From: a virus
Length of the DNA stretch: 28,151 nt
Strand: one strand, 5' to 3'
Virus record (IMG/VR): IMGVR_UViG_3300042507_002324
Location: 1-28,151 of that record
In this document: piece by piece, positions 11,116 to 28,151 of the stretch
How the letters are laid out: each line of letters opens with the position of its first letter
How positions within the stretch are numbered: the stretch's first letter is position 1
The notes under the pieces: model-generated
What the model was told of the DNA's origin: nothing
The model's database searches: none
The model's input: only the letters and a program-made list of their open reading frames with translations
Position numbers and translations under genes: made by a program

Positions 11116-13010
11116 TGAAAAACACAGATTCCCACTCGATTCCGTGGGGGGAGGTAGGTTACCCCGTCTTCAAAAGAACCTACGCAAGGGCAGTTGAAAA
11201 CAGGACCGAAGAGTGGCCAGAGACAGTTGAGCGCGTCGTCAAGGCGTGCAATGAACAGCTGGGTTGTGGCTTCTCTGACGTCGAAAAAGATGAGCTGAGA
11301 CACATAATGATGTCTCTAAAAGGAACCGTGGCTGGCAGGTTTCTGTGGCAGCTTGGTACCGAGACCGTGGACCGCCTCGGTCTCCCCTCGCTTCAGAACT
11401 GCGCCTTCGTGGTCGTAGACAAGCCTGTCAGACCATTTACGTGGGCATTCGAGATGCTCATGCTGGGCAGCGGTGTTGGGTTCAACATCCAAAGAGAGAA
11501 CGTAGGTGAACTGCCTAACCCCCTACCCAATGTGACCATCACACGGATGGACAAGAACGATGCAGACTTCATCGTTCCTGACAGCAGAGAGGGCTGGGTG
11601 GAACTCCTCAGACGTGTCCTCGAGGCTTCGTTTGTGACCGGAAAGGGATTCACCTTCGCCACACATCTCATCCGTTCCAAGGGCTCCCCAATCAAAGGCT
11701 TTGGGGGGACGGCATCAGGACCAGAGGACCTGGTTTGGGGGATGATGGAAATAAACAAGCTGCTCAACGCCAAGGAAGGCGCAGCACTTACCCCTGTGGA
11801 CTGCCTCGACATCATGAACATCATCGGTAGAATCGTGGTGGCTGGCAACGTGAGACGCTCAGCACAGATTGCTATCGGGGACCCCGACGATGTGGAGTAC
11901 CTGAGCGCCAAGCGATGGGACCTTGGCAACATTCCTAACTGGAGGGCTATGTCCAACAACAGCGTTGTGTGTGGCAACATAAACAACCTGCACGAGTCGT
12001 TCTGGGATGGCTATAACGGCAACGGAGAGCCATACGGAATCATCAACCTCGATGCCACCAGACGCATGGGGCGAACGGGTGAGACCCAATACCCTGACCC
12101 AGAGGTTCGTGGATTCAACCCATGTGCAGAGCAGGGCCTCGCCAACTTCGAGACATGCTGCCTTGCAGAGATTTACCTTCCCAACATAGAGTCCTACGAG
12201 GAACTAAAGAAGGTAGCACGTTACCTGTACAGGATAAACAAGCACAGCCTCGCCATCAAGTGTGCCGTAAAGGAGACAGAGCACATCGTGCACAGGAACA
12301 TGAGGATGGGTATCGGGGTTACTGGTTACCTTCAGGCCACAGAAGAGCAGCGCACATGGCTTGACTTGTGCTATGTGTATCTTAGAGAATATGACAATGA
12401 ATACTCTAAACTTGCTGGATTCCCTCGCAGTATTAAGCTCACCACGGTTAAGCCATCTGGAACACTTAGTCTTCTCGCTGGCGTTACACCAGGAGCACAT
12501 CCTGCCTATAGCCAATTCTACATCAGGAGAATTCGAATGGCCTCAGGTAGCCCTCTTGTTAGAGCAGCAAAAGATTCTGGTTATCCAGTAGAGTTCGTAA
12601 GAAACTTCGACGGGACGGAGGACCACGGCACGGAAGTGGTAAGCTTCCCATGTAAGTTTCCTCAAGGGACAACTCTGGCCAAGGACATGACGGCCATCGA
12701 CCAGCTGGAGGTCATCAAGAGACTTCAGAAGGAGTGGTCTGACAACGCTGTGTCCGTGACCATCTACTACAGACTTCATGAGCTAGAGGACATCAAGCAG
12801 TGGCTGAGAGAGAACCTGCATGTGGTAAAGTCGGTTTCGTTTTTGCTTCACAACGAACACGGGTTTGACCAAGCCCCACTGGAGGAAATCACGGAGGAGA
12901 AGTACCTCGAGATGTCGTCTATGGTCAAGCCATTGGTGTCTATCGACGGCATTGGATTTGATGATGTGGACATCGCTGACTGCGACACAGGAGCATGCCC
13001 AGTACGATGA
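11115..13010 (+). CDS. nrdJ: Adenosylcobalamin-dependent (class II) ribonucleotide reductase
   Basis: 631 aa. Reduces ribonucleotides to deoxyribonucleotides for phage DNA synthesis using coenzyme B12. Key residues are present: C96 in LQNCAFV and C348 in ETCCLAE (the redox pair), C337 with E339 in FNPCAEQ (thiyl radical Cys and catalytic Glu), and the C-terminal C623/C628 in DCDTGACPV that regenerate the active site. MLGSGVGFNIQ and TVKPSGTLSLLAG are also class hallmarks. Spacing C337-C348 (11) and C623-C628 (5) equals that of the monomeric B12-dependent triphosphate reductase type, though this one is about 100 aa shorter. A stretch at about 12370-12610 uses A/T-ending codons unlike the rest. 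Confidence 0.93.
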   Translation: MKNTDSHSIPWGEVGYPVFKRTYARAVENRTEEWPETVERVVKACNEQLGCGFSDVEKDELRHIMMSLKGTVAGRFLWQLGTETVDRLGLPSLQNCAFVVVDKPVRPFTWAFEMLMLGSGVGFNIQRENVGELPNPLPNVTITRMDKNDADFIVPDSREGWVELLRRVLEASFVTGKGFTFATHLIRSKGSPIKGFGGTASGPEDLVWGMMEINKLLNAKEGAALTPVDCLDIMNIIGRIVVAGNVRRSAQIAIGDPDDVEYLSAKRWDLGNIPNWRAMSNNSVVCGNINNLHESFWDGYNGNGEPYGIINLDATRRMGRTGETQYPDPEVRGFNPCAEQGLANFETCCLAEIYLPNIESYEELKKVARYLYRINKHSLAIKCAVKETEHIVHRNMRMGIGVTGYLQATEEQRTWLDLCYVYLREYDNEYSKLAGFPRSIKLTTVKPSGTLSLLAGVTPGAHPAYSQFYIRRIRMASGSPLVRAAKDSGYPVEFVRNFDGTEDHGTEVVSFPCKFPQGTTLAKDMTAIDQLEVIKRLQKEWSDNAVSVTIYYRLHELEDIKQWLRENLHVVKSVSFLLHNEHGFDQAPLEEITEEKYLEMSSMVKPLVSIDGIGFDDVDIADCDTGACPVR

Positions 13011-13061
13011 AGCACATATCTCAATGCTGGATAAGCCAGCTATACTATTTCGGTAAACAGG

Positions 13062-13087
13062 AAAGGGGCACAGGCCCCTTTCTTTTT
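13062..13087 (+). terminator. Rho-independent terminator of the plus-strand genes
   Basis: AAAGGGGC (13062-13069) and GCCCCTTT (13074-13081) form a perfect 8-bp stem around loop ACAG, followed by CTTTTT (13082-13087). It lies just after the reductase gene and before two converging minus-strand genes, so it marks the boundary between the two transcription directions. Read from the other strand the stem is followed by few T residues, so it mainly stops rightward transcription. Confidence 0.9.
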
Positions 13088-13130
13088 GCCCTTAGTTTAC
13101 ATTACGGGCTGAAGTATAAGTATGTAGACT

Positions 13131-13271
13131 TTATTTCTCTTGTTGTTTAATTTTCCTCTCTTGCTTCAGCATCTCTGCTGTGGGCTTCTTTCCTGAACCA
13201 CGGTTGGCCCTGATATTGTCCCACAGGCCTCTCGGCGAATAGGAACCATCCTTCCTCTTCATTAAATTCAT
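13131..13271 (-). CDS. 46-aa basic phage protein (RGLWDNI type)
   Basis: Found by hand translation of the minus strand. It begins at an ATGA overlap with the previous small gene and ends just before the convergent terminator. The product is basic: MNLMKRKDGSYSPRGLWDNI, then RANRGSGKKPTAEMLKQERK and a Lys/Gln tail. The segment SPRGLWDNIRANRGSGKKPT...M is a pattern I have seen in many tiny phage virion-region proteins, though the function is not known. It is the last gene of the leftward late operon. Confidence 0.65.
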   Translation of the reverse strand: MNLMKRKDGSYSPRGLWDNIRANRGSGKKPTAEMLKQERKIKQQEK

Positions 13272-13396
13272 CTTCCTTGACCCCTGTACTTCTTGTTGTA
13301 CATTTTACTTGTCTTGTTGTCAGAGTCACTCTTTGCATGGCCACCAACAGATTTCTTTTTGCTTAGTACAATTTTACCAGTTTCCTTCTTAGCCAT
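13268..13396 (-). CDS. 42-aa Lys-rich phage protein
   Basis: Found by hand translation. MAKKETGKIVLSKKKSVGGH starts the product and SKMYNKKYRGQGR ends it; the C-terminal NKKYRGQGR is typical of a tiny basic phage protein that usually sits next to the RGLWDNI-type one. It begins eight bases after the metallopeptidase stop codon and is ATGA-coupled to the next gene. Its charge (about a quarter Lys/Arg) suggests nucleic-acid or membrane-surface binding, but no role is known. Confidence 0.62.
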   Translation of the reverse strand: MAKKETGKIVLSKKKSVGGHAKSDSDNKTSKMYNKKYRGQGR

Positions 13397-13404
13397 GTGT
13401 AAAT

Positions 13405-14613
13405 TTAATCATTTTTGTTCATGTGCTCATTTATCTTCCTGACTATCTCGTGGATGTCTTCAGGTTTGTTGACATGATATGGGGGGATGTACAACTCTCC
13501 ACAATCACAGTCCTGTCCATACACACTCAAAAGCAGTTGAAGGTCGTTGGTGGTAACCAAATGGTCTAGGTCTAAGTCAGCCTCTGTGCAGTAGTTACAG
13601 TTGAAGTACGACAACAAGTGCAACAGGTCTGACGTCCCAACAAAACAGTCTCCGTCAAAATCACCAAAACAGAATGTTTCGTCGGAGAACAAGTCAGACC
13701 GCTGGTACTCAAGCATAGCATGCATCCTGTCTATCTGCCCAGGAGTAAACATATTCCTGCACTCTTCGTGGCAATAATCCATGTGATTGTCAGCAGTGAA
13801 GGGAACGCCATTGTACGTGGTAACGGGGCAGTGATACCCAGGAACCCCAGGACACCCATAGCTAACCTTAGTCGGGGGTGTGTCGCACACATAATCGCCT
13901 GTATGTTCGCATGTGCCTAGGTTCAAGCCACAGCTTGATACAGATGTAGTGTTATTCTTGAACACGTGATGCAACCCACAGTAGTGCCCCATCTCGTGGG
14001 TGAGCGTCTCGTTTTCAAATCTAAACGTGAGGTGAGGGCCATCTACACCAAACACCTCTGTCTCCACCCATACCCCGTCAAGAGTAGACCAAGGGTAGTA
14101 TGTGACCCATGCAAATCCAAGTACAGATGAGCAGAAGTCCGGGGCAACGTACACGTTGCAGTATTCTGCCGTGTTCCATTTCACCATGTTTGTCCACTGA
14201 GCCATCTGAGTACCGTAATCCGGGAAACAGACGCCTCCATTATTTCTGTATGACGTTGCCCATGCAAATGAACCAAGATGGGTGTAGGTGACGTCAACGA
14301 GATTGAACGATATGCTCGTCCCCTCAAAGTCTACATTTAGCTGTTCGAATGCATCAATAACAACATCAAGACCTACGTTGCTGTTAGGGAAGTATTCGTT
14401 GTCGTGAAGGACGTGAACCACACAGTTAATTGTTTTCTCTGTGTACACACGATTGGCAGAACTGTAGTCTTCTGGAAGCGTGTTTTCTTGAGAGCCCATG
14501 ACAACACACTCTTCTTGAGCAGGCGCAGGTGCAGCACAGAAAGAAAAGGACATGCACACAGTAAGAAACCACAGCACAGGCCAGGCGCTTCTGAGGGGGA
14601 GAGAATGATTCAT
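13405..14613 (-). CDS. Secreted pappalysin-like (M43) zinc metallopeptidase with dockerin-like calcium repeats
   Basis: 402 aa. Residues 1-32 are a signal peptide (hydrophobic core at about 11-26, Ala/Pro-rich cleavage region). The catalytic domain has HEMGHYCGLHH (206-216, zinc ligands H206, H210, H216 and catalytic E207), the family-typical TGDYVCDTPP (238-247) and the Met-turn DNHMDYCHEECRNMFTPGQIDRM region with M278. Many Cys residues suggest disulphides. Two calcium-loop repeats follow: FGDFDGDCFVGTSDLLHLLSYF (316-337) and ADLDLDHLVTTNDLQLLLSVYG (345-366), as in dockerin/EF-hand tails. It is ATGA-coupled to the holin gene, so it is made with the lysis proteins. Such peptidases are usual in secreted flavobacterial proteins but unusual in a phage. 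Its target (host envelope, capsule or extracellular matrix) is unknown. Confidence 0.88.
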   Translation of the reverse strand: MNHSLPLRSAWPVLWFLTVCMSFSFCAAPAPAQEECVVMGSQENTLPEDYSSANRVYTEKTINCVVHVLHDNEYFPNSNVGLDVVIDAFEQLNVDFEGTSISFNLVDVTYTHLGSFAWATSYRNNGGVCFPDYGTQMAQWTNMVKWNTAEYCNVYVAPDFCSSVLGFAWVTYYPWSTLDGVWVETEVFGVDGPHLTFRFENETLTHEMGHYCGLHHVFKNNTTSVSSCGLNLGTCEHTGDYVCDTPPTKVSYGCPGVPGYHCPVTTYNGVPFTADNHMDYCHEECRNMFTPGQIDRMHAMLEYQRSDLFSDETFCFGDFDGDCFVGTSDLLHLLSYFNCNYCTEADLDLDHLVTTNDLQLLLSVYGQDCDCGELYIPPYHVNKPEDIHEIVRKINEHMNKND

Positions 14614-15071
14614 CGTTTGTTAAGTCTTATCTTTTCGTATGAACGCCCAGCAAAGTATGCAGTAAACGCAGTTGTCATCAAAACACTAAATACATCTATG
14701 TAAGATTCATTTATGTTAAATGCCACGTTTTCAATGCTGTCGGTGACTACAAATATAGTGAATGAAAGTATCAAATACATTAAAATCATGGGCCTTATAT
14801 TCTTAGACAACCATGAGTCAGACATCATATCTGACTTCCATCGTTCAGTCACATTGTCCTGAGCATTGGACTCATACTCCATGAGCATCTTCTCAAGTTC
14901 CATCTTCTCTTGAGCGGTCATGTTTGGCTCAAGGTCTATGAGCCTCTTGACCACGCCAAGAGCCCCTTGGTCTGGAAGCAGTTCTCCAACTGTCTCCAGA
15001 ACGTCAGGGGCCTTGTCCTTCAGCCAGATTCCGACCTTGGTGTCCTTAATCTTCTTTCGGTCCTTTCTCAT
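14610..15071 (-). CDS. Holin of the 3TM (gene-transfer-agent type) family
   Basis: 153 aa. The N-terminal ~85 residues are a charged, coiled-coil-like cytoplasmic part (KDKAPDVLETVGELLPDQGALGVVKRLI, NMTAQEKMELEKMLMEYE). Two or three hydrophobic segments follow: RPMILMYLILSFTIFVV (about 94-110) and the region of VFSVLMTTAFTAYFAGRSYEKIR (about 127-149). The start RPMIL and end FAGRSYEKIR are typical of 3TM holins that form inner-membrane pores to release lysis enzymes. It overlaps the giant gene by 26 bases and the metallopeptidase by 4, placing it firmly in the late operon. Confidence 0.82.
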   Translation of the reverse strand: MRKDRKKIKDTKVGIWLKDKAPDVLETVGELLPDQGALGVVKRLIDLEPNMTAQEKMELEKMLMEYESNAQDNVTERWKSDMMSDSWLSKNIRPMILMYLILSFTIFVVTDSIENVAFNINESYIDVFSVLMTTAFTAYFAGRSYEKIRLNKR

Positions 15072-18000
15072 TGTAAAGTTTGTTGAAACGCATCATAATC
15101 AAACGCTGCTCCTCGTAGAGTTCAAAGATTCTGTTCTGTCTGTCCACATAGTTTTCCATCTGTTCAGCCAACCTTATCTTCTCCCTGTTTGTTTTTAACA
15201 TTTTTTCAGTTCTCTTGGCCTCATTGCTAAGAAGATATATACTTCCATAACGAGACTTCTCTCCCCTTGTCTTTGGGTCCTCATATTCATCAAGCAATTG
15301 CTTCGTGGTTATAAGGTTGTCTCTGAACTTGTCGTAATCATAATGCTTTCCAATCTCACCATATATATTTCTTACCAGAGGCAGGTCACTGAGAGTCATC
15401 TTAACCCACTCACCCTCCTTTATCATCTGAGCGGAGTTATATATCAAGGTGCCAGTTCTACTAACAAACCTACCCGCACCGCCTATATAGAAGTTCCAGT
15501 AGTGATACAGTCTGTCTGGGTTAAAGTCCAGTGCCCCAGGGGTATACTCACTTCCACCTGTTGACTCGTTCATCCACTGAGCCATGTCTCTCAAGAACTT
15601 GGGAGACTTGTACGCAAGCTGATATTCTGGAACAGGTGTCCCAAATGGCATTTGCTCTCTGTACACAATAGTCCCAAAGAAAGTCTCGTTGATAGCTGCC
15701 TCACCAAAGGCTGCAAGCCCAGAAGGAGTAAGCGCCGTAATCAGACCTTTTTCAGGAGTTGAGTAGCTTCCAAACTGGACTGGCGAGAATGAGTTCAGGA
15801 TAGAACTCATCGTAAAAGCAAAGGCATCGTCTGCTTCTCTTTCGCCAAGAACGGTAGAAGTGACGGCTTCACCAAACGAGGATAGTATACCAAACCCATA
15901 AGCCATAGGAAGCTTGAAGTACTTGTCCTTCTCATACATAAGTATAAGGTTTCTTTGCTTCTCATGGTCAGGTATCTTGTTGTACAACAACTCACCATCC
16001 TCATCCTCTCCACTCATAGCTATGTTGATGGCGGTCAGTGCGCTGCTAAGACCAAATAATCCCAAGCCAAGTTTCTGGGCCTTTCTGAGTCTCTTGACGG
16101 TTGTCCCATCCGGAAGCGTCACGTTCTTGCGAGAACCCATCGTAGTAAAGAATCTATAGCTACCCTGGATGCTGGCCCCGAAGAACAACTTGAACTGATT
16201 CAACGTGATTCCCCACTCACCGTACTTGTTAAAGTTCACGGTTATGTTCTTGGCAAGCTGTGCTGCCTTGGGTCTTGACATGCCCTTTTCTCTTCCGGCT
16301 ATGTAGACAGAAAGCCTGATGGTCTGTTCGAACGCATCATTGACTCCCTCCACGTATCCACCAATTTTTCCAAGCGCCTTCTTCGTGAGATACAGTTTGT
16401 TTGGAGATAGGTCTCTCTCAAGTTCTCTGGCAATCTCGGATAGCGGCTTGGCGTAAGTATACCCAGTAAGGCCACCGTCCTCAATCATCTCATCCATGTA
16501 CTGATTTATCTCAGGACTACCAGGTCTTCCGTTGGCCCTTGCAACCAACGACTTCATCACTGGCCAAACCTTTTTCTTGATTTTGGCTACCTCCTTTTCT
16601 ATATCAAAACCAGCTGCTATGCCTCCTTCCTCGCTTTCGTATGCAGCATTGAATAGAGCAGCCTCAAGGTCTCTGGTGAAGTTCGGGATGAAGAACTCGG
16701 GGTTCATCGTGGTGAGCGACTTACGCAACCAGGCAGTTGGCAGAAGGGCAAGCATCTTGTTGAATGCGTTTACCTTGTCCACCCCCATGTTCTTCAACTG
16801 CTTGGCAAGAGATGGGTTCTGGAACCTGATGAATAACTGCTTACCCTCAACTCTTACACCAACGGTTGAGTCAGCGCCAAACTCTACGGAGGTCTCTACG
16901 CTCCACACTGATGATGGATTCTGCTGAACCAGGTTCAACAATGACACAAGGGCCTCGTTCTTTCTTGCCTTGATTCTCAGTGCCGCAGACGCAGATATAA
17001 TGTTGGCAAGCACGTTGGTTGCCTTGCTCGCCCTGCCCTTGGCCTTCTTACTAGTTCTTCCATAAACGTGTATGCCAGAGCCGCCAGTGGGGTAGACAGT
17101 TGTTTGAGCATCCTTCTCGTCTAAAGCAATACCATACAGCGGAACGTAGGTTTCGTCCTGCTCCCAAGAATCTATAACATCCTGAGACTCAAGACCAAAG
17201 TCAATCATAATCTGTCTGTTCTCAGCGAGCATATCCTTGAACATCTTAGCCCCTTGCTCAAGAACCTCCTTGGGGTACTTCTGCTCAAGTTCTTCAATCA
17301 ATGCATCCGCCTCCTCGTTCGACATGCCAGAGCCGTTTTCTTTGCCATACTTCTCGAATATCATCTGGTTTCGAGACGGGGCATGAAGGGCGTACAAGTA
17401 ATCCGACAGGTCGTCAGACATCAGCTTGTTCTTTCTCATGAACTCCTTGGCTGCGTCAAGCTTAGTCTCGAACTTTTTGAAGTCGGACATTGTCTTACCA
17501 GGCATGAGTTCCTCCATCATTCTGAAGTCAGACTCAAGACCAACCTTTCTGCCCTGAGCCTTGACATCCTCAGTGAGCCAAAGAATTTCAGCGTACTTAT
17601 CCTGCAAGACCCTCCTTACATTAAGAAGCATGGCTCTGAAGTTTGACAACTCAGATGGCTCATACTCGCTCTGACCCTGGTCATTCATAGGGCCTTGGTA
17701 ATATACCCCATCAACTGCCTGCTGACTATGTATGGAGTTCTCAGGCTCATGCATGGACAGCATGGTGTCGTACAGCTGACGCATCTTGTCGCTCAGTTCA
17801 ATCTCAAGAGGAGTTCCCTTGATGCTGCTGTATATCTCGCCAAGCCAGTTCTTGAACGACTTGAATATATTTACAAGAGACAGGTTGGACACAGAGCCAT
17901 CGTACAGGAACTTCTCAAAGCCCTCTGCAAATGCCTCGCTGGTGTCTCTACCCCACTCCTCATGACCAGCCCACTCCAAGACAGTTTCTCTCTCCTCTTC

Positions 18001-21000
18001 GGTAAGATACTGCTCGTAGAGGTGAGCCAGTTCGTGGAGAGGGGACGTGACGTCTGGACTTGATATAGCGTACACCACGCCCTCCTTGTTCTTGATGGCT
18101 ATAGCCGCCCTTTGATTCTGGAAGTATACCTGCTCCTTGTTGTCTATGTTGTATATAGAGCCATCCTCCCCAAGTTTGTAGATGGGGGTGCGAAGTCTTG
18201 ACACGAAGTACTTATCGTAGTTCGGGTCCTTGAGTCTCCACATCGGCTCCTTTATTGTATCGGGTCTGTTGTCCCAAGTCTTGGTGACATATTCTATAGT
18301 TCTGTTGTCACCCTCCCCGTTAAACCCTACGAATACCCCAATCTGTCCTCTAACGTTTATGTTGTCCCCAGGAACCAGGTTAGGCAACTGTCTCGTGTTT
18401 CCAGACATCTTGAAGTCACCCTCCACAGGGGTCATGGGTCTCGTGGTCTGGGCACGCAATCCAGCTGGCCCCCTGTTCCACTCCGACACAACCATGTCGA
18501 ACCCATTCTCATTTGCAGCCTTGGTAACCCAGGCCAGCTGATGGTTGAACGAAGGGAACTTGGCGTTGGGGTTGTCCATGAACTTTCGGTACGACTCAAG
18601 AGCTTGGTCAAACAGGTTAAGCTTGTCCTCGTTGAAGTAGTACACTTTGTTCTTGGGAACCTTGACGATGTGAGGCACGTTTGGAGATACCTCCTTTGTT
18701 GAATCCACATAGTACATGGCCACCCCGCCCACCTGACCTATGGCAGCAGCCTCGTCTCTGGAGGTGTGCGTCTTCTCCCCGGCCATAGGCTTGACCTGGT
18801 CTCTTCTTTCGTCGGAGTAGTGTCTGAAGACGTAGTTGCCCTCGTCATCCTGGGTCATGACAGCATCAACCTCCTCAGGCAAAGAGTATGCGTTGTTGTT
18901 CTCTATAAACGGGTCTATGTTGTTGTCTTTCAGTCTCTGCGCTATCTCTGCATACTGCTGCTTTGAGAACGTCTTTGGGTTCTTGCCGCTTGCGCCAGTC
19001 TGTATGGTGCTGAAGTCAGACATCTTGAACACAGAGAACTGACCAGCAAATCTTGCGAACTTCATGGCGAGGGCCTCGTTGTCCTCAGGAACCATGATGT
19101 TTATATCTATGGAAACTTTGTCTGAGTTGGGGAACTTGTAAAGCCCAAACTTGACCTCGTCCGTGGCGAATACCTCCTTCATCGTGTTGATGTAGTCGGC
19201 AATCATCTCTGGAGTCAGTTCGCTCTGCGTGGTGTTGAAGGAGCCTACAGGAACCACAAGGCCAGTGCCCTCAGAGAACCCCGTTCCTTCATAGTTGAAG
19301 GTGGCCCCATCCTCCTCAGCCACGTCCAGGCCTTTGATTCTATCTACCTGAGCCTTAGTATTTTGTGCAAGTTCTTTCTTGTTTACAGTTGGGCCCTGCA
19401 TCAAAATCTGCGTGGTATCAGTGCCGTCAGCTTTTCTTTGAATAGTTTTAACTGCCTTGCTTAATCCAGAACTCGCTGGCAAGGTCTTACTCATTCTCTC
19501 CTTGTCACTGGATATAGGCATGTTGCTTCCAGGTTCAAGAGGATGCTCCACCATGTTGCCCCAGTATTCTCGGTTACCGTATATGTTTACTTTTACCTTA
19601 GTGTCTGGATTTATAACCTGTGCAGCCCAGCCGTAAGACTTATGCGTGTACATGCCATTCTCGGCAGTATCAACAGCAACAAACGTATTTCCGTTAGGGT
19701 TAACATCAACCTCAACAGAAGCGTATACCATCCCGTTTTTTACCGTTCCCTTGTCATATTGTGAGGTAAACATATCCCTCAAAACAGGCTCACAAAAACC
19801 ACGTTCAAGAGCATGTCTTATGTCTCCAGCAGTAATTCTTTTAGTCTTGCTTTTGTTTGGCTTAAAGTCCTCCTTTGATTCAAAGTTGCCTATGTCAAAC
19901 AACACGCTGACTAACTCTTCTCTAAGGTTTTTATTTTCTTTTGCCGCATCAGCAAGATATGCGGTTAGCGTCTCGGAAAACAAAAACCTATCCTGAAAAC
20001 TTCTTTTCTGTATAGCAGAATATATTTTTTCAAGAACAACTTCAAAGCTGTCTCTTTTCTTTATGTCTGCTTTTAATTGTATTAGTTTTGTTTTCTTTAT
20101 TCCAGTCTCTTCATCAACACTTTCTTGAAGCTTGGACTTAGTGCTTGCTTGGACAAGTGCTTCAACGAGAGTTGGTTTTTTCAAGGCTGACTTAGGGTCT
20201 CTAACCATCATCTCCAACAACCTGACAAAACCAGTGTTGAAGGTGTGATTAGTTCTAAGCTTTTTCATATTTGTAGTAATGAGGGCAAGTCTAACCTTAC
20301 CATCCTTACTTTCCTTAGCTGCTTTGTTCAGGGCATTGACAAGTATGTTCGTCGCGTTTTTTGTGGTAGACACCCAGAACAAATTGCTTTCTCTTGCCCC
20401 AGGAATGAGCGGGTAATAAACACCCCCCTCTCCTTCCATGATTAAAGTTCCTTTTCTGGCAATGTCACCAGCAAACATTCCATCAGGAATATGTAGAACC
20501 ATAGATGCATCAAAGAGAGATTCTATATCAGCCTCGTCATCTATAAGTCCATCGGCCTTTAGCTGAGCAAACTCTTCGTCATTCTTCAGCCACGTTCTTG
20601 TGAATCCGTTCTCGCTAAGCTTTATGTTTTCTTGGAACAGCAGCACCTCCTCGGTGTTGTCTGGGACTATCTTGCCATCAGGGGTGACGGACTTGGCCTT
20701 CTCCCACGACACACGACCGTACATCTCCTCCTTGCTAATTCCGTCTCTCTTGGCCATATTGGTAATCATGACGTCAGCCACAGCGGCGTCAGCCTTGGCC
20801 TTGTCTTTGGGCAATCCGAACACCACCTCAAAAGTCTTGGCAAGCTGGGCCTTGTTCTTGGGCTTAGATATTTTTGCAGACTCCTTGGCCCTTGCATCAG
20901 CAAACTTGGCGTCCATGGGGCTTGCAGTACCGCGCTTGACCACAAGCTTTGCAGGCTGTACCATCTGCCCGTTCTTTCTTATCTCTGGCTTTGACACAGA

Positions 21001-23931
21001 CGAGACAATCTCTTGGCCTCTCGGAAGGTTGTTGTCTGGTATGTAGGCAACCTCATCGAGTTCATTAGGGATGTATCTCTCTCCTATACTCGGCGCCACG
21101 TAAGAGTAGCCAGAAGTTCTAAGCTGTTCTCTTGCGTCATCAAGTTCCTTCTGTTGCTGCTGTGTCAGCCTAGTCCCGCGAGCCACGGCATCTTCATGCT
21201 GAGCCACTAAAGTGGCCATACGGACTGGCTCTGTTTCTATAGACAGGAGTCTTGACAGCCTTGCCATGGATGGGTTAGACTTCTCCGCTGGCGCAGGCTT
21301 CTCCTTTATTGGGGAGGATTTTGGCTTTGTAGGTGTTTCGACAGGTACTTTACTTGCAGACTTCTTGGCAGTTGCTTTAGTTTCGACAGGTTTAGAAACT
21401 CTTTCTGCGAGTTTGCTGGCGACGTACTCGTCATGTTCTCTTTGGAATTGTTCATCTTGTTCTAAAAGTTGGTTTACTCTCTCAACCTGTTGTGGCGACT
21501 CGGCGTTAGCCAAAAGTACTTGATAGGCAACGTCTTCTGCAAGCTGTCCCTCGAACATCTTTCTTTCGTCACTGCCCGCCTTCTTCAAGCTGACCCTTGC
21601 GACATTTCCACTATCATCATATTCGATACCAAGAGTTGGTAACTCAAGCTGTGCTTCAAAGCTCTCACCATCCACTTCTATGGTCTCGTCTTTCAAAACT
21701 CTTACTCTCTCTGGCTCAGCCTGGATGCCAACCTCAGACAGGTCCTTCTCAAAGACCTCCGTGTAGTTTCCTATCTCATATACCTTGTCCTGTGTCTCAA
21801 AAACCAAGGTCTGGTCCTGAACATACAGGTCCCCTTTAACAGGTTCATCAAACTTTACTCCACCAAACGAGGTGAGGGTGGCTGGTCTATTCAACGATTC
21901 TTGAACCGTGACCTCCTGAGGGGCAACACTTTCCACCGGGGTCTCAACAACAGCCTCAGCAGTTCCCTGAACGGGAACCTCTCCAAGCTGTTCCTCTGTG
22001 ACTCTGTTTATATAGGAGTTGTTTATGTCTGCTATCTCTGCATCTATAGCCGCTACACGCTGTGCCGTCACCTGACCAGCATCAGCCTCCCTTCCCTTTT
22101 CAGGGGTTCCGGCTGTTTTCGAAAGGTTTCTTCTTTCAAGTTCAAGGTTGATAATTCGACGTCTGTCTTCAGAGGAAACGGCAGGGTCTATCCTGTCCGC
22201 TACCTGTGCTCTGAAGGCTTTCTCCTCAAGAACGCCAGACAGTTCTGGGTCGTTGTTTATGGTTATGGTGAGGTCCTTGAGAGACTCTGGTGTTGAGGAC
22301 TCAATTATTCTTCTAGCTTGCTCTCTGTCTACCTTTTTGTCATTTATGGTATATGACGGCATTGCCTTGGCAGTGTAGTCGTCAAGCATGGCCTGCCCAA
22401 CGGTCAAGGGAGCGGTACCAGCCTCGGCCAAGCCCTCTATAAGTATGTCTGCACCAGAAATCTTCTGACCAGCGGCCAGCTGTCCAGCAAATTCACCAGC
22501 AGCACCAAATGCACTCTCTATAGGTGCAATAGCCGCGACCCTAGAGGCGGTGTCTAGGCCCCTCTTAACGAGAGCCTTCGAAGCAGCGCCACCAACCCCC
22601 ATACTAACGCCATCTACAATACCTATCGCAATACCCCTTCTTACTGAATTAGAAGCGACTGTGTTATATATGTCTTCGTTATTTAGGGCCACTTGGATAT
22701 TTTCCGGAGTCCACTGCATCCCTCTGTTTGCCATCTCCTGTTGAAGGAGGTCAACAAATGTTGCAGTAGTCTCGAGAGTTGTAGACGCGGCGCCAAAAGC
22801 AAAAGGAATAGAGCCAACAGCACCGCCTATTGCTCCAGGGATGGCCCCAACCCCACCAGCAGCGGCACCAACAGCAGCGCCACCTGCTGCCGACCCAGCT
22901 ACTGTACTTGCAAAGGCTGTTGCCGAGGCCTTGTTAAAAAGGCCTGCAAGAGACTCAAGAGTGATTGTAGGCAGTATTGATGGGTTTCTGCCTATAGCAT
23001 ACAGGGCAGCAAGAGCTGTGCTCTCTCCGTTAGCCTCTGCATCCTGTATGCTCTGCTGGAAATCAAGCATCTCGGCAGACACCCCATATTTATCTACAAA
23101 TCTTTGATGCTCGTTAGCGGCACTCATAAATTTTTCAGCCTGAGACAGGGTGACATTGCCCCTAGTAACCATTATGTCGGCAACCTCTGCGGCAGCGTCA
23201 TTGGCTGAAAGAGAACCAGCTATACCCCTGGCTATGTCATCAAAGATGTCAAGCATAGCAGAGGTGTATGTCCCCTCCGACTCCATGTAGAACTTAAGGC
23301 CCTCATAAAGACCTGGAGCATTCGGAAATGTTTCCTTGACAAGCTGAGGTATAAAGGCCTGGTTAGCTTTATCCTCAAGGGCCTTGCGTCTTGCTGCTAT
23401 TATCTCTGCTTGACGCTGGTCAATCATCTGAGGCAGTTCCTCCATAGGGGCCTCCATAGCTTGTTGAATCTGAGCCGACCTCCAGTCGTCCTCAGTAAAC
23501 CCATACTTTGCAACAGCCTCATCAGAAATCTCACCAAGGTTTCTGTCAGAAAGCACACTTGACCGAACAAAGTTGTGCATAACCTGATTGTACGATGGGC
23601 TAGCCTGGGGTTTATGTGAACCCCTGTACGGCATTATAACGTCGTCAGACCGTAAACTAGCCTGGACCTCAGTACCTCTTAGGGAAGAAAAGCCTCCCGA
23701 AGAAGGAGCAGACGCTGGCGAAAGGTCTTTTTTTTTTGGCTCACCGCCGAAGTAAGCCTGGTAGAACGAATCAGATGACAGGTCTGTCATTTGATTTTGA
23801 ACTAAATAGCCGTACAGCTGATTGTACTTTTGCTTGTCTGAGCCGTAAGTGTTGTAAAATTCGTCGGCACTCAAGTCTGTCATGCCGTTAGACTGCAAGT
23901 ACTGATACAGTTGTTGATATTTTTCGTTCAT
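15046..23931 (-). CDS. Giant polyvalent (LPD-type) virion/ejection protein with embedded metallopeptidase
   Basis: 2961 aa, about a third of the window. Seen from the N-terminus: two copies of an ~27-residue repeat (5-31 and 36-62, pattern YxxLYxYLxxNxMTDLSxDxFYxxY); a Gly/Ala-rich hydrophobic stretch (about 334-385); a Lys/Pro/Ala-rich linker (about 834-900); several alpha/beta regions; a segment starting FRHYSDERR (about 1700) like those in polyvalent proteins; a zincin core HELAH (1966-1970) with E1999/E2003 in SEAFAEGFEKFL; and an LPD38-like region LPTAWLRKSLTTMNPEFFIPNFTRD (about 2394-2418). Polyvalent proteins are injected with phage or plasmid DNA to counter host defences. Position next to ejection-type genes suggests an internal virion protein, but this is inference. 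Confidence 0.8.
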   Translation of the reverse strand: MNEKYQQLYQYLQSNGMTDLSADEFYNTYGSDKQKYNQLYGYLVQNQMTDLSSDSFYQAYFGGEPKKKDLSPASAPSSGGFSSLRGTEVQASLRSDDVIMPYRGSHKPQASPSYNQVMHNFVRSSVLSDRNLGEISDEAVAKYGFTEDDWRSAQIQQAMEAPMEELPQMIDQRQAEIIAARRKALEDKANQAFIPQLVKETFPNAPGLYEGLKFYMESEGTYTSAMLDIFDDIARGIAGSLSANDAAAEVADIMVTRGNVTLSQAEKFMSAANEHQRFVDKYGVSAEMLDFQQSIQDAEANGESTALAALYAIGRNPSILPTITLESLAGLFNKASATAFASTVAGSAAGGAAVGAAAGGVGAIPGAIGGAVGSIPFAFGAASTTLETTATFVDLLQQEMANRGMQWTPENIQVALNNEDIYNTVASNSVRRGIAIGIVDGVSMGVGGAASKALVKRGLDTASRVAAIAPIESAFGAAGEFAGQLAAGQKISGADILIEGLAEAGTAPLTVGQAMLDDYTAKAMPSYTINDKKVDREQARRIIESSTPESLKDLTITINNDPELSGVLEEKAFRAQVADRIDPAVSSEDRRRIINLELERRNLSKTAGTPEKGREADAGQVTAQRVAAIDAEIADINNSYINRVTEEQLGEVPVQGTAEAVVETPVESVAPQEVTVQESLNRPATLTSFGGVKFDEPVKGDLYVQDQTLVFETQDKVYEIGNYTEVFEKDLSEVGIQAEPERVRVLKDETIEVDGESFEAQLELPTLGIEYDDSGNVARVSLKKAGSDERKMFEGQLAEDVAYQVLLANAESPQQVERVNQLLEQDEQFQREHDEYVASKLAERVSKPVETKATAKKSASKVPVETPTKPKSSPIKEKPAPAEKSNPSMARLSRLLSIETEPVRMATLVAQHEDAVARGTRLTQQQQKELDDAREQLRTSGYSYVAPSIGERYIPNELDEVAYIPDNNLPRGQEIVSSVSKPEIRKNGQMVQPAKLVVKRGTASPMDAKFADARAKESAKISKPKNKAQLAKTFEVVFGLPKDKAKADAAVADVMITNMAKRDGISKEEMYGRVSWEKAKSVTPDGKIVPDNTEEVLLFQENIKLSENGFTRTWLKNDEEFAQLKADGLIDDEADIESLFDASMVLHIPDGMFAGDIARKGTLIMEGEGGVYYPLIPGARESNLFWVSTTKNATNILVNALNKAAKESKDGKVRLALITTNMKKLRTNHTFNTGFVRLLEMMVRDPKSALKKPTLVEALVQASTKSKLQESVDEETGIKKTKLIQLKADIKKRDSFEVVLEKIYSAIQKRSFQDRFLFSETLTAYLADAAKENKNLREELVSVLFDIGNFESKEDFKPNKSKTKRITAGDIRHALERGFCEPVLRDMFTSQYDKGTVKNGMVYASVEVDVNPNGNTFVAVDTAENGMYTHKSYGWAAQVINPDTKVKVNIYGNREYWGNMVEHPLEPGSNMPISSDKERMSKTLPASSGLSKAVKTIQRKADGTDTTQILMQGPTVNKKELAQNTKAQVDRIKGLDVAEEDGATFNYEGTGFSEGTGLVVPVGSFNTTQSELTPEMIADYINTMKEVFATDEVKFGLYKFPNSDKVSIDINIMVPEDNEALAMKFARFAGQFSVFKMSDFSTIQTGASGKNPKTFSKQQYAEIAQRLKDNNIDPFIENNNAYSLPEEVDAVMTQDDEGNYVFRHYSDERRDQVKPMAGEKTHTSRDEAAAIGQVGGVAMYYVDSTKEVSPNVPHIVKVPKNKVYYFNEDKLNLFDQALESYRKFMDNPNAKFPSFNHQLAWVTKAANENGFDMVVSEWNRGPAGLRAQTTRPMTPVEGDFKMSGNTRQLPNLVPGDNINVRGQIGVFVGFNGEGDNRTIEYVTKTWDNRPDTIKEPMWRLKDPNYDKYFVSRLRTPIYKLGEDGSIYNIDNKEQVYFQNQRAAIAIKNKEGVVYAISSPDVTSPLHELAHLYEQYLTEEERETVLEWAGHEEWGRDTSEAFAEGFEKFLYDGSVSNLSLVNIFKSFKNWLGEIYSSIKGTPLEIELSDKMRQLYDTMLSMHEPENSIHSQQAVDGVYYQGPMNDQGQSEYEPSELSNFRAMLLNVRRVLQDKYAEILWLTEDVKAQGRKVGLESDFRMMEELMPGKTMSDFKKFETKLDAAKEFMRKNKLMSDDLSDYLYALHAPSRNQMIFEKYGKENGSGMSNEEADALIEELEQKYPKEVLEQGAKMFKDMLAENRQIMIDFGLESQDVIDSWEQDETYVPLYGIALDEKDAQTTVYPTGGSGIHVYGRTSKKAKGRASKATNVLANIISASAALRIKARKNEALVSLLNLVQQNPSSVWSVETSVEFGADSTVGVRVEGKQLFIRFQNPSLAKQLKNMGVDKVNAFNKMLALLPTAWLRKSLTTMNPEFFIPNFTRDLEAALFNAAYESEEGGIAAGFDIEKEVAKIKKKVWPVMKSLVARANGRPGSPEINQYMDEMIEDGGLTGYTYAKPLSEIARELERDLSPNKLYLTKKALGKIGGYVEGVNDAFEQTIRLSVYIAGREKGMSRPKAAQLAKNITVNFNKYGEWGITLNQFKLFFGASIQGSYRFFTTMGSRKNVTLPDGTTVKRLRKAQKLGLGLFGLSSALTAINIAMSGEDEDGELLYNKIPDHEKQRNLILMYEKDKYFKLPMAYGFGILSSFGEAVTSTVLGEREADDAFAFTMSSILNSFSPVQFGSYSTPEKGLITALTPSGLAAFGEAAINETFFGTIVYREQMPFGTPVPEYQLAYKSPKFLRDMAQWMNESTGGSEYTPGALDFNPDRLYHYWNFYIGGAGRFVSRTGTLIYNSAQMIKEGEWVKMTLSDLPLVRNIYGEIGKHYDYDKFRDNLITTKQLLDEYEDPKTRGEKSRYGSIYLLSNEAKRTEKMLKTNREKIRLAEQMENYVDRQNRIFELYEEQRLIMMRFNKLYNEKGPKED

Positions 23932-26398: not shown

Positions 26399-27361
26399 TT
26401 ATGAACTTGCATCCAGCTTGGAGTGCGAGTATTCAGTATTTACTGCATACAGCTCAAACGGCTTTCCGTCAGCAGGGGTCTGCAACGTAATCATAGCATA
26501 CTTGCCTCTAATCTGGTCTCCATTCAACGATGGGTCAGAGACAGAATAAATCACATTGCCAGCCTCTATGCCGGGAGTCGATGGCCACAAACTTGCGAAT
26601 GCAGCAGAGCTGAAAGAAAAGACAGCGTATAAAGAGTTGTTAAAATACTTAATAGAAACTAGGTTATAAGCAGAATCAGAATAACAAGTATCTGGATTAA
26701 AAACCTCTTGAGTAGCATTTGCTTTTGTAAAGTTTATGCTGTCATACGGCTCCTTAGAGTGAGCTACTTTTACACCCTGCGGCATGCCATAAGAGATGTA
26801 CTCTGAGTTTATCTGGTTGGCAAAGTAAAACGTATTGGGCTCTATGTTTTCTATGAGCCCGATGTTTTTAAGGTGTTGAGCCGAGGCAGGAGCATTGTTG
26901 ACTAACAACTTACTGCCAAGTGTGCCCACAACATTTACCTGCTTGGTAGAATTGACTATCGAGCGGCCGATGTCTGAATACAAACCCTCTTCCCTTGGTG
27001 TAAACGACTTAAATACAGATACTTGTTTTTTTGTTACAGAGTTATCCGGAAGGTCAATGTTAGTCGATACAGAAGAAAAAAATTGATTCTGGTTACTCTC
27101 AAGAGAAATAGCATTGTACACCTTTTCCATTGAAGGATTTTCATTTGAAACCACAATCAAAGAACTAGGATGGTTTTCGTTATAAAATCTATTTCTAGTC
27201 TGATTTTTATTGTGCTCCCAACAAAGGACGTCAGTGTTGCTTGTGTTCTTAGACAAGGAAAATGAAGCAAAGTAGTTGTCTATGCTGCCATAGCAATCTG
27301 GCTCAAAACTGTATCTTGTTTTCCAGAATTTATTGTTAGTTGAGAATGCGTATGTGGGCAT
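26399..27361 (-). CDS. Probable virion structural/tail protein (320 aa)
   Basis: Start at 27361, one base after the previous stop; the longer in-frame start at 27424 overlaps that gene and is rejected. The product is beta-rich and Asn/Ser-rich. Its N-terminal third (FEPDCYGSIDNYFASFSLSKN ... VLCWEHN ... NRFYNENHPSSLIVVSNENPSMEKVYNAISLE) has the WEHN...FY...S.I.VVSN..P...KV.N..SLE pattern found in structural proteins of Bacteroidetes phages. The C-terminal half lacks known motifs. No signal peptide or catalytic residues. The gene and its neighbour to the right are clearly A/T-richer than the rest of the window. Confidence 0.6.
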   Translation of the reverse strand: MPTYAFSTNNKFWKTRYSFEPDCYGSIDNYFASFSLSKNTSNTDVLCWEHNKNQTRNRFYNENHPSSLIVVSNENPSMEKVYNAISLESNQNQFFSSVSTNIDLPDNSVTKKQVSVFKSFTPREEGLYSDIGRSIVNSTKQVNVVGTLGSKLLVNNAPASAQHLKNIGLIENIEPNTFYFANQINSEYISYGMPQGVKVAHSKEPYDSINFTKANATQEVFNPDTCYSDSAYNLVSIKYFNNSLYAVFSFSSAAFASLWPSTPGIEAGNVIYSVSDPSLNGDQIRGKYAMITLQTPADGKPFELYAVNTEYSHSKLDASS

Positions 27362-27362
27362 A

Positions 27363-28151
27363 TTAAGAAAATACTTGTTGGTTATAATCAACGCTATCCA
27401 TAGCAACTGAATTGCCATATGCACTAAGAAATGCCAAAAAGAGATTTGTATTTATACTTAATAGTTTGTCGCTGTATATAGAGCCGTTTTCGGAGTTTTC
27501 ATCAGGGCACAAAATCATTCTAGACGCATATTCTTTTGCTCCAGCCCCAACAAATGCTTGGTTAAGCTTTTCTTTTAGTTCGCCTTTAGTAACATTTGCG
27601 CTTGCTATAATATGAAGCAATTTTATAGCATTATATTTAATTCTGTCGTATTCGCTGGTATTTGGATTTACGCTATTGGAAGAAGGTATTGACAAGTTGT
27701 TACTGTCTTGAATAAATTCTATGCCGTCGTAACCAAACTCAGACAAGAAATCGCTTAATAAGTTGTATTCTCCACTTATTGCTATTTCTTTTGCGTTATA
27801 TCCAATTTCATTTTCGTTCAATTCGTCTGTGTTGTTGTAAACTATAAGGCCGTAAAAAGACAAAAATGACAGCATATCAGGAGTTCCAACATCACCATTA
27901 TTGGTTGCATCAAACTTTGAAAATTCAGGGAAAAACTCTACGGTATTTGCGTATTCAGCTAGATATGCTAGGTCTAAGAAATTAAGGCCAAGTATATTGA
28001 CATAGTCATCTAAAGTCTCTATAACGTAGTTGTTTAACCCAGCACAAGAATCGTATTCACATCCGCCAAACAAGAGGTTTCCATTTACATCATAAACTGG
28101 GTCACTACTATAGTTGTGATATGGTTCAACGCTGTCGTCGTCTGGATAAAA
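27363..28151 (-). CDS. Partial late protein with dockerin-like calcium repeat (5' end outside the window)
   Basis: The frame stays open to the window edge; the TTG at 28073 is only an internal codon, and the visible 262 codons (through base 28151) begin mid-protein with an acidic YPDDDSVEPYHN stretch. It has a GGCEYDSCAG Cys pair, then FDATNNGDVGTPDMLSFLSFYG, which matches the calcium-loop pattern of the secreted metallopeptidase (D-x-N-x-D-x-GT-x-DLL-x-LLS-x-F). The rest is helical with no known domain. It stops one base before the 320-aa gene start. Position and calcium repeat suggest an adsorption or tail-tip component, but this is inference. Confidence 0.55.
   Translation of the reverse strand, partial: FYPDDDSVEPYHNYSSDPVYDVNGNLLFGGCEYDSCAGLNNYVIETLDDYVNILGLNFLDLAYLAEYANTVEFFPEFSKFDATNNGDVGTPDMLSFLSFYGLIVYNNTDELNENEIGYNAKEIAISGEYNLLSDFLSEFGYDGIEFIQDSNNLSIPSSNSVNPNTSEYDRIKYNAIKLLHIIASANVTKGELKEKLNQAFVGAGAKEYASRMILCPDENSENGSIYSDKLLSINTNLFLAFLSAYGNSVAMDSVDYNQQVFS

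Follow-up and report, generated by a model that had tools for sequence, protein, structure and literature searches.

M43 enzymes and phage lysis cassettes are each already known, and spanin genes often stand third in the latter, after endolysin and holin. To our knowledge the breaching of the outer membrane by tailed Bacteroidota phages is poorly understood. The solved structures closest by sequence to the virus protein described here are those of mirolysin (Tannerella forsythia) and ulilysin, and mirolysin carries a cysteine switch, its zinc being blocked by a Cys of a short pro-segment (PMC6949598). Shared with these enzymes are the catalytic domain, the zinc motif, the Met-turn, four disulfide Cys, a short Cys-bearing N-terminal pro-segment and an export signal. 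In contrast to them the protein is virus-encoded, has an HEMGHYCGL signature, an extra invariant Cys and a pair of calcium-binding loops after the catalytic domain, and lacks a KLIKK/T9SS C-terminal domain and (in the clade A described below) the Arg and Cys-Gly of the switch. Spanins (Rz/Rz1, u-spanin) are resembled in that the gene is third after endolysin and holin in some relatives (L010, L012-L016, L024) and in a putative action on the outer envelope, but the window protein would be an enzyme and not a fusion device, has neither a membrane anchor nor a convincing lipobox, and is optional in relatives. The M15 endolysins (phrog_894) are also metallopeptidases of these phages and some adjoin holins, although their peptidase family is a different one and peptidoglycan is their target. 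An M43 family confined to viruses and linked to lysis genes seems to be new, since neither a phage M43 or phage pappalysin nor an exported protease acting as a lysis partner was found in the literature searched, which lay mostly outside subscription journals. An ORF adjoining the holin of Tenacibaculum phage Larrie is labelled 'metallopeptidase'.

The window (the whole stretch analysed, a 28,151-base IMG/VR virus record) carries at 13405..14613, on the minus strand as are all window features given below, an ATG-started gene for a 402-aa M43 (pappalysin-type) metallopeptidase. Its product scores 67.8 bits with Peptidase_M43 (PF05572; cut-off 23, E=1.3e-18), whilst a PHROG search gave no match. 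A structure model of moderate quality (mean pLDDT 62, with residues 216-287 poor) matches 6r7w with a Foldseek E of 2.5e-10, and its top 21 matches are all mirolysin, ulilysin or PAPP-A/A2. Family profile and predicted fold thus both place the protein in M43. The initial annotation, made from the DNA letters, had described a full signal peptide, an intact zinc site and the family Met-turn, and each is borne out: the hydrophobic N-terminus (residues 1-32, 14518..14613) ends APA|QEEC with a predicted cut before Gln33, the zinc-binding active site HEMGHYCGLHH occupies residues 206-216 (13966..13998) and the Met-turn NHMDY residues 276-280 (13774..13788), the latter two being invariant or nearly so across an alignment of 27 virus M43s. 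C235, C254, C262 and C285 are invariant and align with the four Cys of the two mirolysin disulfides.

Dockerin-like repeats had also been proposed, and here the claim holds in part. After the catalytic domain, and followed by a short C-terminal helix, lie two predicted calcium-binding loops, DFDGDCFVGTSD (residues 318-329, 13627..13662; D318, D322 and D329 invariant) and DLDLDHLVTTND (residues 346-357, 13543..13578; D346 and D357 invariant), both of canonical form with 12 residues and a D-x-D-x-D-x6-D pattern. However Pfam calls no Dockerin_1 domain in the window protein, and the relative L045 scores below the cut-off (17.8 bits against 22.9, E=0.0039). Elsewhere in the window a partial ORF for an apparent virion protein (27363-28151) has a single dockerin-like stretch, FDATNNGDVGTPDMLSFLSFYG, and so a calcium-loop theme may be common to it and the M43 protein.

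Directly upstream of the M43 gene is a holin gene (14610..15071) identified by a match to PHROG 3427 (E=5.5e-20), with GTA_holin_3TM below cut-off, and its stop overlaps the M43 start by 4 bp in the sequence ATGA. The minus-strand order is virion-type genes and a giant protein, then holin, then M43. The giant protein (15046-23931, 2,961 aa) has a homologue in L092 whose C-terminal third is about 30% identical to large Vibrio and Escherichia phage proteins, and a match of 26399-27424 to the Crassvirus muzzle C-terminal domain (PF25729, E=1.7e-8) suggests that tail parts of the window phage are related to those of crAss-like phages. Two overlapping small basic ORFs (13131-13271 and 13268-13396; 46 and 42 aa) directly follow M43 on the same strand, so the operon may continue beyond M43. 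The coupling to the holin noted initially is clear, but the placing of the gene inside a lysis cassette needs narrowing, because there is no endolysin within the 28,151 bases and in a near-complete relative about 44 kb separate the M15 endolysin from holin-M43; in the window the cassette therefore amounts to holin and M43 only.

A scan of 2.9 million IMG/VR contigs gave 59 loci encoding M43 relatives at 31-100% identity. They form three clades, A (56-100%), B (39-45%) and C, which has extra domains (about 30-39%). By our own reading of terminase, portal and gene order, which is no formal classification and in which acquisitions may not be independent, the phages fall into six backbones. Backbone I, that of the window, has all three clades at about one position, with holin-M43 in clade A, holin-(TM protein)-M43 in clade B (L033/L034) and, in clade C (L055/L056), convergent M43 and holin genes. 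Backbone II (L010-L016, L024) has M15 endolysin-holin-M43-GroES, and in L010, L012-L016 and L024 this is a true endolysin-holin-M43 cassette, back to back. Backbone III (L022, L025) has M15-M43, backbone V (L043, L048-L050, L052, L054) has M43, a 67-aa TM protein with a weak holin match and then M15, and backbone VI (L057) has M43-TM protein and, about 1 kb further, an amidase. A lysis gene is thus found at M43 in five of the six, the exception being backbone IV (L032, L035-L041) with M43-GroEL-GroES and no lysis gene adjacent; the clade B genes of L035-L041 run directly into the phage GroEL and GroES genes. The initial annotation had advised searching phage genomes for M43 beside holins. The two genes overlap or abut in 25 loci (gaps of -4, -1 or +5 bp), and the coupling seen in the window is repeated in many related phages, with lysis genes adjoining in unrelated backbones too. 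Recurrence of the holin-M43 order on many independent contigs rules out an assembly artefact. Among 50,697 phage records one weak M43 fragment alone was recovered (MT837139, an unannotated faecal fragment), and no phage isolate matched in these searches. In L028 a 1,369-aa ORF (11170-15279) with no NCBIfam or PHROG match overlaps the M43 end.

The export signal seems a constant feature, being carried by all virus M43 relatives in which the start is present. By the Q rule of Bacteroidota (PMC5837995) a Gln follows the signal-peptide cut, and in the virus relatives listed a Gln stands after A, G or S and a Cys lies further on (for L048-L050 and L055 this Gln was read from the alignment, the pattern listing having chosen an earlier, spurious one). 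Both Gln33 and Cys36 are invariant in all 27 aligned proteins. Cys36 (14506..14508), in a short pro-segment of residues 33 to about 60, is the candidate for a cysteine switch of the mirolysin type, and of the Arg-x-Cys-Gly motif the Cys is kept throughout, the Gly is present only in clade C and part of clade B, and the Arg is absent; clade A retains neither Cys-Gly nor Arg. By analogy with mirolysin a switch is thus likely yet unproven, and the virus enzymes would probably be latent at first. The Q rule, together with a putative capsid protein of the near-complete relative G003 that matches Flavobacterium and Cellulophaga phages, leads us to infer Bacteroidota hosts, which are probably aquatic. 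Phages of Porphyromonas gingivalis also have proteins predicted for the host Sec route with Gln at +1, of unknown function, and no protease is reported among them in the part of that account available (PMC10367356). Small Q-rule secreted proteins also occur near M43 or M15 genes in the present set (L022:6570-7025, L025:11511-12002, L090:7836-8336).

Other fates for the exported protein were considered and rejected. A lipoprotein is disfavoured because FSFC, at the end of the hydrophobic core, is a poor lipobox, and the Gln cut site follows in all aligned proteins, as it does after the more ambiguous FSSC and LFSC ends of some relatives. The signal is of the cleavable type only, and the window protein has no TM or lipoprotein anchor linking inner and outer membranes. 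Signal peptide and lack of a PHROG match argue against a virion protein or endolysin. Export by type IX secretion (T9SS) was rejected too, as a sorting domain is missing from clades A and B (none was found in the window protein by Pfam, NCBIfam or hhalign) and clade C has a weak similarity alone. By the tests made here the window protein is not a spanin, not a dockerin by Pfam and not T9SS cargo. The clade C tail, found in L045:5930-7924, L050, L052 and L055-L057, resembles the second half of a T9SS sorting domain (39 columns, with an hhalign probability of 86%), is recognised by neither Pfam nor NCBIfam, and hints that phages may exploit the type IX secretion of the host.

The gene is mobile between phages. 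L024 and L016 are 79-99% identical in DNA over both flanks but 49-80% inside M43, the change falling at the gene limits, and the M43 of L028 joins the C-terminus of the L020 protein to a window-like catalytic domain. L076-L078 have the same holin and no M43, which makes M43 dispensable for lysis in general. Such exchange of alleles at the M43 borders, in phages whose remaining DNA is about 90% alike (L024/L016; L028/L020), is what would be expected if substrates vary by host, and it fits an enzyme that clears proteins off the surface of the infected cell or of its debris and so blocks superinfection and progeny re-binding, the position by the holin then reflecting late expression only. A sorting-like tail in clade C would suit such delivery to the cell surface. 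Nevertheless the clade A and B enzymes, having no sorting domain, should stay periplasmic before lysis, the clade C tail is one that the domain databases do not recognise, and the receptor is itself putative, so that we consider this destruction of receptors a possible but secondary explanation.

That the gene might be a captured host passenger with no role in infection could be argued from the abundance of M43 genes in likely hosts and from the relatives that do without it. Set against this, omega for M43 is about 0.04-0.14 in the closest pairs with measurable dS, showing strong purifying selection, and every virus copy that extends to the active site has it intact. An ORF of L031 (9920-10753), near-identical to that of L025, ends early at 277 aa, past the active site, and may be a decayed copy or a sequencing error. 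There are 57 invariant columns over 27 virus M43s, down to 30% identity, a conservation far beyond chance. With the old virus-only grouping described next and the repeated spread between backbones, selection and distribution largely refute the passenger reading, to which we give hardly any weight. M43 is thus a selected accessory gene, optional and exchanged.

In a tree of 52 catalytic domains a 100/99 branch separates all virus M43s from 25 cellular Bacteroidia M43s, the cellular sample being a limited one collected from 395 genomes by searching with the window protein. M43 relatives occur in 341 of these 395 genomes, but three queries (the window protein, one protein of clade C and a virus-family profile) found no close donor; the best profile match (164 bits) covers the catalytic part only, and no cellular gene there matches the whole profile. 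A peptide-pattern scan of 84,980 cellular genomes gave one distant relative and no close copy, using exact short peptides that would miss diverged copies, and order-level donor searches covered 22 and 10 genomes only. The virus proteins therefore appear to be a virus-specific branch of pappalysin (M43) metallopeptidases, and recent host capture is rejected on distribution, selection and tree. The picture is opposite to that of a gene absent from related phages and newly inserted from a host, which the initial annotation had named as counting against its proposal: there are 59 loci, low omega values and a separate, supported virus group. Since M43 relatives are so widespread in Bacteroidia and the characterised ones are secreted, and since calcium loops suit work outside the cytoplasm, an enzyme released at lysis could digest exopolymer, neighbours or dissolved protein and so help spread or feed the host population. 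Yet a diffusible public good is of little gain to a lytic phage, and linkage to lysis genes in most backbones is only loosely explained by it, which makes a community role of this kind rather improbable.

We favour a lysis-associated envelope or surface protease, loaded into the periplasm before the holin fires, and give this a probability of roughly one half, ahead of the stripping of receptors and debris and, further behind, of the community enzyme. Its support comes from motifs, family and fold, lysis-gene linkage, purifying selection, the virus-only group and the Q-rule Gln with its Cys. As judged from solved relatives, M43 would be exported through Sec, the signal cut would expose Gln33, the protein would fold in the periplasm with disulfides, and Cys36 on the zinc would hold it latent. 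It may build up late, together with the holin. After holin triggering, with wall and outer membrane giving way, the enzyme may be activated by calcium and autolysis and might then cut lipoproteins or proteins of the outer membrane or surface layer, both in the dying cell and in its debris (the substrates are a guess), speeding envelope break-up and freeing progeny from receptor-carrying fragments. Capsule, matrix or neighbouring cells may be targets, as the initial annotation had suggested. Its wider interpretation stands as to an exported M43 that is coupled to the holin and recurs beside lysis genes, whereas its link to lysis timing does not hold strictly everywhere, because the window has no adjoining endolysin and the clade B lineage with GroEL keeps M43 off lysis genes. 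That lineage, the M43-free L076-L078, the convergent L055/L056 and the loss of the switch Cys-Gly and Arg in clade A all count against the favoured reading. So do small coiled-coil TM proteins of the same genomes with a weak likeness to Rz spanins or holins, since a spanin substitute may then be unneeded. A bolder form, in which Bacteroidota phages finish lysis with a protease-driven step and the latent exported metalloprotease, coupled to the holin, takes over or strengthens the role of spanins through cleavage of proteins that keep the outer membrane or surface layer together, we regard as doubtful.

Overall the findings suggest that protein cutting at the envelope or surface is a part of virus exit. 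The virus M43s show phages using the host Q-rule export route for a potentially self-inhibited enzyme, and if M43 strips surface proteins this would bear on superinfection and on organic-matter release in aquatic lysis. A conserved virus-only M43 family, placed by holins and endolysins in several backbones, provides a concrete and testable candidate for outer-membrane breach.
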